Source: Acinetobacter sp. ANC 4910
Lineage (GTDB): Bacteria; Pseudomonadota; Gammaproteobacteria; Pseudomonadales; Moraxellaceae
Length of the DNA: 64,000 nucleotides
Assembly (NCBI RefSeq): GCF_004331035.1
Contig: NZ_SJNT01000017.1
Coordinates: 1 to 64,000 of the forward strand
Reading direction: 5' to 3'
Shown: positions 22,326 to 58,610 of the stretch, piece after piece
Layout: each line of letters starts with the position of its first letter
How positions within the stretch are numbered: the first letter of the stretch is position 1
Made by a program: the position numbers and the translations under genes
Notes under the pieces: generated by a model
What the model was told of the DNA's origin: nothing
Databases searched by the model: none
What the model saw: the letters and a program-made list of their open reading frames with translations, nothing else

Positions 22326-22580
22326 ATGTTATTCAAAAAAATCGCTATTGCTGCTGCAGTTGCTACTACTTTAGCTTTCGTTGGCTGTGCTAAAAAAGAA
22401 GAAGCTCCTGCTGCTGAAGCTGCTGCTTCTGCTGCGTCTGAAGCTACTGCTGCTGCTTCTGAAGCTTCTGCTGCTGTAGACGCTGCTGCTGTTGAAGCTG
22501 CTTCTGCTGCTAACGTTGCTGCTTCTGCTGCTGACGTTGCTGCTTCTGCTGCTGACGCTGCTGCTTCTGCTGCTCACTAA
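22326..22580 (+). CDS. Alanine-rich repeat lipoprotein, Lpp/OprI-like
   Basis: An 84-residue protein with a lipoprotein signal peptide (hydrophobic AIAAAVATTLAF, then FVGC with the acylated Cys21). The mature part is almost only Ala, Ser, Glu, Asp and Val, with repeats of the type ASAADVAASAADAAASA. The spacing of Val/Ala suggests a long amphipathic helix that could trimerise like Lpp or OprI, but the C-terminal Lys/Arg used by Lpp for peptidoglycan attachment is absent (it ends SAAH), so covalent anchoring is unlikely. Codons are strikingly monotonous (GCT, TCT, GAC), forming a near-perfect DNA tandem repeat. Function is inferred from composition only. Confidence 0.75.
   Translation: MLFKKIAIAAAVATTLAFVGCAKKEEAPAAEAAASAASEATAAASEASAAVDAAAVEAASAANVAASAADVAASAADAAASAAH
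22480..22576 (+). repeat. GCT-rich tandem repeat inside the lipoprotein gene
   Basis: Imperfect units built on GCTGCTTCTGCTGCTGACGT-type blocks (about 24 bases) repeat through the 3' half of the gene, encoding the Ala/Ser/Asp heptad-like segments. Uniform codon choice in each unit suggests recent duplication or slippage, so copy number may vary between strains. Confidence 0.65.
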
Positions 22581-22597
22581 TCTTTACGATTACGTAG

Positions 22598-22712: not shown

Positions 22713-23009
22713 TCAATCGATCTGCTCTTTCCCAACACGCTGTCTAAATTTCTGACCTGCGCGGAATGTAACTACACGGCGGGCAGAAATCGGAATCTCT
22801 TCACCCGTTTTAGGATTTCTACCTGGTCGTTGACGCTTATCACGCAACTCGAAGTTTCCGAAACCCGAAAGTTTAACCTGTTCTCCAGAAATAAGCGCTT
22901 GGCTTATTTCATCAAAGAACAATTCGACCATTTGTTTTGCTTCACGACGGTTTAAACTCGTGAGCTCACTTAAATGATCAGCCATTTCTGCTTTAGTTAA
23001 TGCTGTCAT
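22713..23009 (-). CDS. ihfA: Integration host factor subunit alpha
   Basis: A 98-residue DNA-bending protein of the HU/IHF family; with IhfB it sharply bends specific sites and shapes the nucleoid and sigma-54 promoters. The alpha-subunit features are [12 protein letters not shown] at the N terminus and the beta-arm [21 protein letters not shown] with the intercalating proline. It starts inside the pheT stop (ATGA overlap, 23006-23009), so it is translationally coupled to pheT, as in other gammaproteobacteria. Confidence 0.96.
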
Positions 23010-25387
23010 GAAGCCCTCAATGTCGCCTGATAAGTGTTTTGCAACACTTCAATAATTGTATCCATACCCGATTTGATTTCAGCATCTTCTAATGTACGTG
23101 AAGGATGTTGCCATAACAGTGCAAATGCCAATGAGCGTTTACCTGCTTCAACCCCTTGTCCTGTGTACACATCGAAGAGCCAATTCGAGTTTAACAGCTC
23201 CCCACCAGTTTTAGTGATAAGTTGCTGAATTTCACCAATATTAATCTTATCACTAATTAAAAGCGCAATATCACGTCTTACTGATGGAAAACGTGATAAT
23301 TCTGTAAAATTAGATACATAAGTTTGCAAAACTGCCTTTTGATCAAGTTCAGCCACCCAAGTCGTACCTAAATCCAACTCTGCCTCCAGCGTTGGGTGCA
23401 AACGACCTAAATAACCGATTGATTGACCACCTACCATAATCTCTGCTGACTGACCAGGATGCAACCATACTCGCTCTGAACGAGCATATTCCACTTTGAT
23501 ACGCCCTGCCGCCAACAACTCTTCCACTTCACCTTTAAAATCAAAGAAGTCCATTGCTTGTGGTTTGGCATGCCAAGATTCTGCTTGCTTCGCACCTACA
23601 GCAATCATGGCTAATGTAGGAATCTGTTTTAAATCATGGATGTTATTTGCATCTTGATAATCAAAACGTAAGCCCAACTCAAAGAAGCGCACACGACTTT
23701 GTTGGCGGTTAATATTATATTGCACGCAAGGAATTAAGCTTGAAAGCAAAGTCGAACGCATGACCGCTAAATCACTTGAAATTGGATTGGCCAATGCCAA
23801 CGGATTAACTGCTGGATTGAGCTGTTTTTCTAGTTTCAAATCCGCAAAGCTGAAACTAATCGCTTCTTGATAACCCAAAGTCACGAGGGTTTGACGAAGC
23901 TGAGCCATTTCAAATTGGTCTTGATATTGAGCCAATTGTGCTTCAATTTTTGGCAAGCTGATTTGAATGTTGTCATAACCATGGATACGTGCGACTTCTT
24001 CAATCAGATCTTGGTAGATCGCCATATCATAACGGTGTGATGGTGGAACAACAGACCACTGACCTTCCGCTTTAACCGTCACAGCACAACCTAAACGTGT
24101 TAGGGCATCAACAATAAATTCGCCTTCTACACGATAACCCAGTAATTGATCGACTTGTGTCTGTTTAAGCTCAATCGCTTCGCGTTTAGGCAAAACTTCA
24201 GCTTGTTCTGCAACCGTAATCGGACCAAATTCACCACCAGCAAGCTCAGCAATCAATTGTGATGCACGATGCATTGCAATCATTGGTAATTCAAAGTCTA
24301 CACCACGTTCATAACGCTGCGACGCATCGGTATGTAAACCAAAACTACGCGCACGCCCCGCAATATGTAAAGGTGCGAAGAATGCAGATTCTAAGAAAAT
24401 TTCAGTCGTTTCATCGGTGACTGAAGATGATAAACCACCCATGATACCCGCAATCGCCAATGCTTTTTCATCATCCGCAATCACCATCACTTTTTCATTC
24501 AGTTCCACAGCTTGTTCATTTAACAACACCAGTTTTTCAGCTGCCGTTGCTTGACGCACATGTACTGCACCCTGAACCTTTCCACCATCAAAAGCATGTA
24601 ATGGTTGACCCAACTCCATTAATACATAGTTGGTAATATCAACCAAAATACTGTGTTGACGCATACCTGAACGCGCAAGTGCACGCTCCATCCATTCTGG
24701 TGTTGGTGCTTTAGTATTTACGTTTTTGATTACGCGACCTAAATAACGCGGGCAACCTTCAGTCGTGACAACAACTTTTTTCTCATCTGCAATTGTCGCA
24801 GCTACTTCTTTAATCTCTGGCGCAACCGCAGTCATTTGGTTAATCACCGCAATTTCACGTGCAATACCACGAATACTGAAGCAGTCACCGCGGTTTGGCG
24901 TAATGCTGATGTCAATCACATGATCATCTAAATCTAGATATTCACGGATATTCACGCCCACAGGCGCATCTGCTGGGAGTTCTAAAAGACCATCAATTTT
25001 GTCTTCTAAATCAATTTCCGAAGCACCACACAACATGCCTTGTGATTCAATACCACGCAACTTGCCTTTTTTAATTTTAAAATCACCTGGTAGCACTGCA
25101 CCAATCGTCGCTACAGGAGCTTTCATGCCCACACGAACATTCGGTGCACCACATACAATTTGCAAAGGTTCACCTGAACCAATATTTACGGTAGTGACAC
25201 GTAAACGGTCTGCATCAGGATGTTGTTCTACGGTAAGCACTTCACCAACTACAACACCTGTAAATGGTTTTGCCGCAGGAGATAAATCATCGACTTCCAA
25301 ACCGAGCATGGTCAGTTGGTCAGATAAAGTTTCGCTATCAATGGCTGGATTCACCCATGTGCGTAACCAATTTTCGCTAATTTTCAT
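23006..25387 (-). CDS. pheT: Phenylalanine--tRNA ligase subunit beta
   Basis: The 793-residue beta subunit of PheRS, which pairs with PheS to charge tRNA(Phe) and edit mis-charged tyrosine. It starts at the family N terminus [12 protein letters not shown] (ATG 25387). A longer frame to 25441 only reads into the repeat element upstream. Domains: EMAP-like tRNA-binding domain (about 39-150), B3/B4 editing region, B5 domain with DITPNRGDC... and the FDX-ACB anticodon-binding domain at the C terminus ([15 protein letters not shown]). An AAGGA ribosome site lies 10 bases before the start. It is separated from pheS by an unusual 136-base gap holding the palindromic element. Confidence 0.96.
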
Positions 25388-25402
25388 AAATTCAATGTCC
25401 TT

Positions 25403-25494
25403 AATCTCCCCTAACCCTCTTTTAAAAGAGGGAAAACACACTACCGTTTTAGGTAGACTAGTCCCCCTTTATAAAGGGGGACTTAGGGGGATTT
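25403..25494. repeat. Cloverleaf-like palindromic repeat between pheS and pheT
   Basis: About 92 bases with near-matching inverted ends (AATCTCCCCTAA at 25403-25414; TTAGGGGGATT at 25483-25493). Inside are three further hairpins: CCCTCTTTTAAAAGAGGG (25415-25432), CTACC-GTTTTA-GGTAG (25441-25456) and GTCCCCCTTTATAAAGGGGGAC (25461-25482). Paired ends plus three internal stems would fold as a cloverleaf in RNA or extruded DNA. This resembles a small non-autonomous mobile repeat. A diverged copy of one arm occurs at 58575-58610. Confidence 0.7.
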
Positions 25495-25523: not shown

Positions 25524-26525
<1,002 letters not shown>

Positions 26526-58572: not shown

Positions 58573-58574
58573 AA

Positions 58575-58610
58575 TCTCCTCCAGTCTCTCTTTATAAAAG
58601 AGACTGGAGA
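58575..58610. repeat. Palindrome related to the pheST repeat
   Basis: CTCCAGTCTCT (58579-58589) pairs with AGAGACTGGAG (58599-58609) across CTTTATAAA. With its left flank AAATCTCC it matches about 21 of 27 positions of the corresponding arm of the element at 25461-25494 read in reverse, including the shared TTTATAAA centre. It looks like a diverged partial copy, here next to the pntB stop, and may add to termination. Confidence 0.5.

Follow-up and report, generated by a model that had tools for sequence, protein, structure and literature searches.

The window analysed here, that is the whole 64-kb stretch of DNA, carries both PheRS genes on the minus strand, with pheS (PheRS alpha; 25524-26516, listed from a TTG start with an ATG 4 codons on) ending in the stop codon 25524-25526 and pheT (PheRS beta; 23006-25387, named from its translation) beginning with the ATG at 25385-25387. 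The gap of 136 bases between them holds a strongly folding palindromic element of 91 nt (25403-25493, minus strand). An insertion into this operon had been described in the first-pass annotation, and the element indeed sits between the pheS stop and the pheT ATG; the strong self-folding also stood, but not the length of 92 bases, as 25494 is a flanking T. Folding of 25403-25494 as RNA led to an energy of -45.8 kcal/mol compared with -26.45 ± 3.56 kcal/mol for 200 dinucleotide shuffles (z = -5.44), none of which was equally good (0/200). The near-complementary ends form a terminal stem of 10 pairs with one bulge (25403-25413 with 25484-25493), and the three hairpins expected from the earlier reading are present at 25415-25432, 25441-25456 and 25460-25483; the sequence of the middle one, however, is not conserved and varies among the own-genome copies compared, with the exception of the duplicates L002 and L003. 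The architecture is that of two inverted half-units, each consisting of a foot and a hairpin, around a variable middle (25441-25456) able to form its own stem, and the conserved part comprises the feet and the two outer hairpins. The foot of about 11 bases reads AATC, then pyrimidines, then AA, and the hairpin of about 9 bp has the form Yn-TTT-n-AAA-Rn. With R1, a covariance model of the half-unit, 36.8 bits were obtained for the class 2 half-unit (25403-25434, plus strand; foot AATCTCCCCTAA, hairpin CCCTCTTTTAAAAGAGGG) and 39.0 bits for the class 1 half-unit (25460-25493, minus strand; foot AATCCCCCTAAG, hairpin TCCCCCTTTATAAAGGGGGA). On the minus strand the junction reads ..GGGGAGATT-AAGGACATTGAATTT-ATG, with the AAGGA at 25398-25402 directly abutting the element, so that the proposed contact with the pheT ribosome site was confirmed. 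The element may play a role in pheST expression, given that it stands between two coupled genes and directly beside this site. Elsewhere in the window, low-complexity repeats of the GCTGCTTCTGAAGCT type at 22379-22594 resemble an alanine-rich coding stretch.

BLAST and R1 located 18 sites of the element family in the own genome (3.48 Mb), namely 13 inverted pairs (68 to 113 bases, feet outward), 3 solitary half-units and 2 forms collapsed to foot-hairpin-foot. Among the pairs, L012 is without its left foot and L016 has a third half-unit. One of the collapsed forms is a weak second match in the window (58573-58609, plus strand, 37 nt, 25.4 bits); it lies 11 bases beside a reading frame and may be a relic or just a hairpin of the terminator kind. 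R1 gave 39 matches in the 3.48 Mb, a count that exceeds the number of half-units since hairpins also match on the opposite strand. All but one of the 18 sites lie outside long reading frames, which were found mechanically. For 14 sites the stop of an adjacent frame is no more than 45 bases away, and for 14 the frames on both sides run in the same direction. Some copies stand inside operons, as in pheS-pheT and also in purH-purD and catJ/pcaJ-catF/pcaF (the last two named by eye). The same element is found in both duplicated cat/pca-type clusters (L002 at G000:C22:197975 and L003 at C8:73748; named by eye), as might result from gene conversion. One copy (L141 1026-1100; G000:C19) lies within a 699-codon reading frame.

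The search of Acinetobacter genomes with a structure-aware model, as suggested in the first-pass annotation, indeed revealed many dispersed copies, with half-unit matches (R1, E <= 1e-3) in 53 of 60 genomes and 0 to 84 matches per genome, opposite-strand echoes included; seven genomes had no match and six more a single weak one. The suggested comparison of pheS-pheT spacing was possible in 59 of the 60 species (G025 was left out owing to a contig end) and showed a short gap in 22 (23 to 35 bases in 19 species, 54 to 77 in 3). Another 19 species carry this element type, and in the other 18 the gap is filled by an insert of a different kind (107 to 146 bases), mostly palindromic and partly decayed. 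Allele labels (t1, t2 or empty) were assigned from length and regex; several t2 inserts are decayed, and G005, which carries both insert types in tandem, was set to t1 by hand. On a tree derived from the flanking codons by a quick method, with 29 of the 59 rows under half filled, the states required 19 changes together, and strongly supported branches force at least 3 changes per filled state. This element type showed no clustering on the tree beyond shuffled labels (16 changes vs a mean of 16.1), which could reflect either repeated gain or allele exchange.

In 17 aligned pheS-pheT orthologs the terminal stem and a middle stem of at least 4 bp were predicted throughout (17/17); the left hairpin forms in 10 of the best folds and the right one in 11, the rest folding as a rod. 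Such conservation, together with the very stable fold, would suit a conserved RNA switch or processing site controlling pheT. We consider this explanation very unlikely, as 22 of the 59 species lack the element and 18 have another insert in its place, the same repeat family occurs at unrelated genes, and an Rfam scan of the 64-kb window returned no family at gathering scores. A scan of the window for tRNA and tmRNA found none.

The orthologous sites of 13 own-genome copies were likewise both filled and empty among relatives, with an internal deletion at site L140 (47 vs about 126 bases) and an element reversed in place at site L136 in G034 and G039. At the L140 site, L181 and L182 (G042, G039) have a palindrome of another family (CTCCCTC type) in the intergenic position that the family of the pheS-pheT element takes in other species. 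A clean target-site duplication was found neither in the 13 site alignments nor at pheS-pheT, the flanks of filled and empty sites being too diverged in both, and no exact ends of the element emerged from these alignments. From the fold, the own-genome copies, the orthologous copies and the folds of the 17 orthologs, 25403-25493 was assigned as the long (cloverleaf) form of a whole paired palindromic element. It appears, from sequence comparison, to be a non-autonomous, mobile-like repeat of two inverted half-units, which was inserted between pheS and pheT and is dispersed and variable in its presence.

Pairing in the arms was analysed with 97 distinct half-units, in whose alignment, fitted to the structure, 99.0% of 872 cells were paired. 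Double-change cells amounted to 106 compared with 33.0 in shuffles, and the number of standard pair types showed no excess (10 vs 10.0 shuffled). The mobility suggested in the first-pass annotation is supported by dispersed copies, covarying arms and absence at orthologous sites, although no transposition event was seen; neither a single copy conserved in all relatives nor uncompensated arm mutations, either of which would have spoken against it, were found.

The foot also is the mirror image of the pyrimidine arm of its hairpin, with 95.0% identity at the variable positions 5-8 in 136 Acinetobacter half-units compared with 67.7% (maximum 73.7%) when the feet were dealt out anew. As the foot mirrors the arm and the arms pair, foot, arm and counter-arm vary together, as required for an intrastrand triplex motif, and this symmetry therefore identifies the element as a bacterial intrastrand-triplex motif (PIT/TM). 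Judged by its letters, the pheS-pheT element is a member of this known kind of palindrome, with a triplex predicted. According to the available passages of Holder 2015 (PMC4666352), TM motifs, earlier named PIT (Hoyne et al. 2000 as cited there), occur in more than 260 genomes and are always intergenic in E. coli K-12, and triplex formation was demonstrated in vitro for the E. coli motif. The same passages describe no regulatory pattern for E. coli TM sites and cite work in which neither promoter nor terminator activity was detected. The common features are a pyrimidine/purine mirror tract with a hairpin, about 35 nt in length, and an intergenic, widespread and multi-copy occurrence, for which we count 18 sites, 17 of them outside long frames, and 53/60 genomes. 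A further likeness is the arrangement in inverted pairs of two different types, which applies to 5/5 pairs in E. coli, always A with B (PMC4666352, available passages), and to 64/64 in Acinetobacter. In these 64 distinct full elements feet and hairpins are inverted, as the search required, and feet of the same class were never combined (0/64 vs 11.9 expected; 0/5000 shuffles as low; orthologs included). Since all 64 pairs are heterotypic, every terminal stem has a T.G on one strand and a C.A on the other. Heterotypic feet as a universal rule had to be rejected, as 7 of 18 pairs outside Acinetobacter have identical feet. The inner feet flanking DUF559 genes there (see below) are the same in 13/23 cases. 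What sets the Acinetobacter elements apart from the published motifs are empty sites and linked DUF559 genes, whereas in the available passages of Holder 2015 (PMC4666352) no mobility genes are reported around TM sites, their origin is called unclear and insertion or deletion is left open.

These linked genes became apparent in the regions between neighbouring half-units, five of eight of which hold a gene of about 120 codons belonging to PF04480 (DUF559; E = 1.5e-34 and 4.9e-34 for the two of the five genes scanned). All five lie in one variable region beside metH (named by eye). A search of the genus led to 30 DUF559 loci with two clades of protein. Clade A is bounded by the palindrome type of the pheS-pheT element: for 9 of its 11 intact genes R1 matched a half-unit no more than 150 nt away (E <= 1e-3), compared with 39 matches in the 3.48 Mb of the own genome, and loci such as L223, L228 and L230 carry paired elements on both sides of the gene. 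The stop codon of several clade A genes lies inside the foot, with GAATCCCCCTAA encoding E-S-P-stop. At the 18 loci of clade B the gene stands between palindromes of another type with a ACCTCTCCCTAA foot (by eye), whose ends read T-S-P-stop, and R1 gave only weak matches, at two of these loci. The DUF559 gene of the own genome (G000:C18:39565-39888) has decayed ends, and an element pair lies 790 bases away. Hairpin tips upstream of DUF559 in L213, L222, L223 and L227 can hold a nested palindrome like TTGCGC..GC..CTCATC.

In Acinetobacter the median number of half-unit matches was 36 for the 33 genomes with a strong DUF559 hit and 4 for the 27 without, when the cut was set near E = 1e-14 and gene fragments and clade B genes were included; the association had p = 1e-5 with kinship ignored, compared with p = 0.77 for PF01797 (IS200-type). 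Some palindrome-rich genomes are without a strong hit, such as G012 (84 matches, one contig), G059 (50) and G043 (54), and gene loss or another mobiliser is needed for them. Most copies have no DUF559 gene nearby, as it was found near copies in 2 of the 30 top loci, where it was the sole non-host family among the gene clusters recurring beside half-units.

A short palindromic intergenic repeat in inverted pairs is BIME-like, so that a common REP/BIME or MITE mobilised by the transposase of an IS or by a RAYT has to be considered. It is the least probable of the explanations in our view, since PF01797 was unmatched in the own genome and found in only 10/60 genomes of the genus, none of 21 PF01797 loci had a half-unit hairpin within about 1.5 kb (regex), the half-unit consensus (AATC plus pyrimidines) is without a GTAG or CGTC tag, and no transposase was bounded by spaced half-units in the eight regions (by eye). 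The one locus with foot-like words on both sides (L026) was rejected, as its 309-aa coding region is a false weak PF01797 hit. An IS3-like frame starts about 970 bases past a half-unit in L130. Similar genetic arrangements are known from REPtrons and TIRtrons, in which the gene for a small DNA-processing enzyme is flanked by genome-dispersed palindromes and several enzyme-palindrome pairs exist (RAYT/TIRYT with REP or TIR; Di Nocera 2013, PMC3733652, as far as the available passages describe them); they use a HUH tyrosine transposase, whereas here a predicted nuclease of the PD-(D/E)XK/EDxHD type is encoded and a GTAG tag is lacking. Correia and ERIC elements (PMC10969869) and MITEAba12 (PMC6382973) are also short inverted-repeat insertions between genes, and terminal inverted repeats as in MITEs are present in our element. 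The ends of MITEAba12 match ISAba12 according to the available text of PMC6382973, while no such IS was found for the pheS-pheT element; the DUF559 genes with these ends are instead a candidate autonomous partner.

Palindromes and DUF559 genes might also both be passengers of recombination hot spots, if fragile triplex or cruciform sites attract accessory genes and allele exchange by transformation gives presence and absence. TM sites are tied to local genome variation in E. coli (available passages of Holder 2015, PMC4666352), the variable region beside metH holds several accessory genes, and sister species have different pheS-pheT alleles with the element type unclustered on the tree, all of which would agree with this explanation. 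It leaves open why accessory PF01797 genes have no such hairpin within about 1.5 kb (21 loci, regex) and no count association, why frame and stop of DUF559 fit the palindrome, and why DUF559 is the only non-host family recurring beside half-units (2 of 30 loci), and we therefore regard it as improbable.

To cover other phyla, flanks were analysed for the best 80 of 573 confirmed DUF559 relatives, a set that therefore favours near relatives of the query and includes Chloroflexota, Desulfobacterales, Nitrospirae, Bacteroidetes, Patescibacteria and others. Of its 68 non-Acinetobacter loci, 64 could be used, as the others lay too close to the end of a contig. In 38 of the 64 loci the stop coincided with the motif Y5+ T2-3 n A2-3 R5+, which was chosen after the flanks had been seen; 44 loci had this motif before the start and 32 at both places, compared with 1.5% of random windows from the same loci. 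Any perfect hairpin of at least 8 bp gave 34, 41 and 27 of 64 (stop, start and both; 3.5% at random), one of 9 bp 22, 29 and 16 (1.7%) and one of 10 bp 2, 7 and 1 (0.7%). As the linkage fades with longer perfect stems, the palindromes flanking DUF559 are short or imperfect. An AATCY foot lies over the stop codon in 15 of these 80 loci (8 from Acinetobacter, 7 from several other phyla), and the mirror identity of foot and arm in other DUF559 loci was 96.6% vs 87.6% shuffled. Sixteen of the 80 loci, one of them from Acinetobacter, were picked by hand for genome counts, and R1 matched in 14 of the 15 non-Acinetobacter genomes behind them, with up to 144 matches.

In a phylum sample of 150 genomes, a DUF559 hit (E <= 1e-14) was detected in 30 and at least 10 R1 matches in 5, of which 3 had a strong DUF559 hit. 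Most DUF559 genomes were without an R1 half-unit, and most DUF559 genes therefore belong to other palindromes or to none. For 26 of 29 genes the flanks were parsed, resulting in a hairpin of at least 8 bp before the start in 19 and at the stop in 12 (control 2.2%), mostly of CCCTCTCCC..GGGAGAGGG-like types (by eye). In one genome of this sample there are eight DUF559 paralogs, all of which adjoin a palindrome on one or both sides (by eye), and some of these palindromes are shared (L366 = L368, L371 = L372). In a plasmid collection, 8 of 10 DUF559 loci had clear palindromes at the gene (by eye), including Neisseria gonorrhoeae, Pseudanabaena, Picosynechococcus, Deinococcus, Photobacterium and Azospirillum; the exceptions were Synechocystis (L354), where they are weak, and Pseudanabaena galeata (L359), where the gene lies inside a larger frame. 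Over 146 loci, the protein score was more closely correlated with the k-mer similarity of DNA abutting the gene than with that of DNA further out (rho 0.40 vs 0.11 below 60% identity; 0/300 permutations as high), the respective values for pairs under 45% identity being 0.27 and 0.14; in this comparison far windows were longer than near ones and some genes were included a second time with another locus id. When the eight paralogs of the one genome were compared with each other, protein and palindrome were not significantly correlated (rho 0.30, p = 0.12). Genes for DUF559 nucleases are flanked by triplex palindromes across many phyla, a linkage that appears to be new. No link of DUF559 to palindromic repeats was found in the open-licence literature searched (titles, abstract openings and some passages), and the sequence words of the repeat family led only to papers unrelated by title.

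An AlphaFold model of the A. variabilis DUF559 protein (mean pLDDT 93.2) was used for a Foldseek search, which led to 3HRL (NGO0050; E = 1.8e-7), 3R3P (I-Bth0305I; 4.5e-4) and, as a weaker match, Vsr (9.8e-3); mitoribosomal proteins stood in between. A profile search agreed on 3HRL and 3R3P (E = 8.3e-5 for the latter). The DUF559 protein therefore resembles I-Bth0305I and NGO0050 in both fold and sequence profile, and the model predicts a nuclease with a homing-endonuclease fold (EDxHD/Vsr-like). I-Bth0305I is at home in a group I intron and is named 'mobile intron protein' in its PDB entry, whereas the DUF559 genes described here stand between palindromes. A DUF559 gene has been assigned to the EDxHD homing family (PMC9403480, available passages). 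VsrA of Caulobacter has a DUF559 domain, is Vsr-like and is proposed to act in mismatch repair, and Vsr itself acts at T.G mismatches (PMC12907096, available text); the domain and the weaker structural match to Vsr are shared with our protein, and the difference is the mismatch-repair proposal, the word stem 'palindrom' being absent from the available text of that paper.

Such a fold would also be expected if DUF559 genes were homing parasites that use the palindrome as target site or landing pad, with the palindromes spreading otherwise. The palindrome-rich genomes without a strong DUF559 hit and the eight paralogs that adjoin a palindrome on one or both sides (by eye) point in this direction as well. 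At L223, L228 and L230, however, the gene is flanked by paired elements and not by one split element, and the stop codon lies inside the foot also in the 7 non-Acinetobacter loci from several phyla (best 80 of 573), so that homing appears rather unlikely. In our opinion the pheS-pheT element and its relatives are probably non-autonomous palindromic elements spread by DUF559 nucleases, and we infer that the nuclease acts on the palindrome and thereby spreads the gene as well as gene-less copies. The autonomous counterpart would be a small DUF559 nuclease gene between such palindromes, the 3' end of which may read into the palindrome. The nuclease would recognise its own palindrome when extruded or single-stranded, as at a fork, on the lagging strand or during natural transformation, and would nick or cut there; repair or strand transfer might then copy or move the palindromic unit with or without the gene, and gene-less copies would be moved in trans.

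Extended to triplex palindromes in general, these would be a mobile class spread by a dedicated non-transposase nuclease (DUF559), each clade with its own palindrome and with the T.G/C.A mismatch as nicking signal, a proposal we make tentatively and with somewhat less than even confidence. Its boldest part is that a Vsr-like enzyme could use the T.G mismatch of the terminal stem as nicking signal; with identical feet in 7/18 pairs outside Acinetobacter, this signal would therefore not be universal. If true, DUF559 proteins would gain a biological role, and it would be explained how long structured inserts come to stand in operons like pheST while these remain functional. Hundreds of bacterial genomes contain triplex/PIT palindromes (PMC4666352, available passages), and the linked DUF559 gene is widespread.

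As E. coli K-12 ycjD is one of these genes and lies beside a listed TM site, the question of origin is testable in a laboratory strain. ycjD (1351407-1351760) ends with ..CGGTCACCCTCTCCCTGA, followed by a degenerate counter-arm, and TM no. 9 of Holder's list (PMC4666352, in its available part) is located 168 bp beyond the gene. It is variably present (fabI-sapF region; L351, L362, L363), with at least 80% of a 741-base query found in 3364 of 5426 E. coli genomes. A clean empty site was rejected here, as two strains without ycjD carry TetR and efflux genes beside fabI. At L322 (1841-2930, G086; the same matches as in L296 from Rodentibacter heidelbergensis), about 12 half-units are arranged in tandem with a spacing of close to 94 bases, and the array starts within the stop codon of the DUF559 gene.
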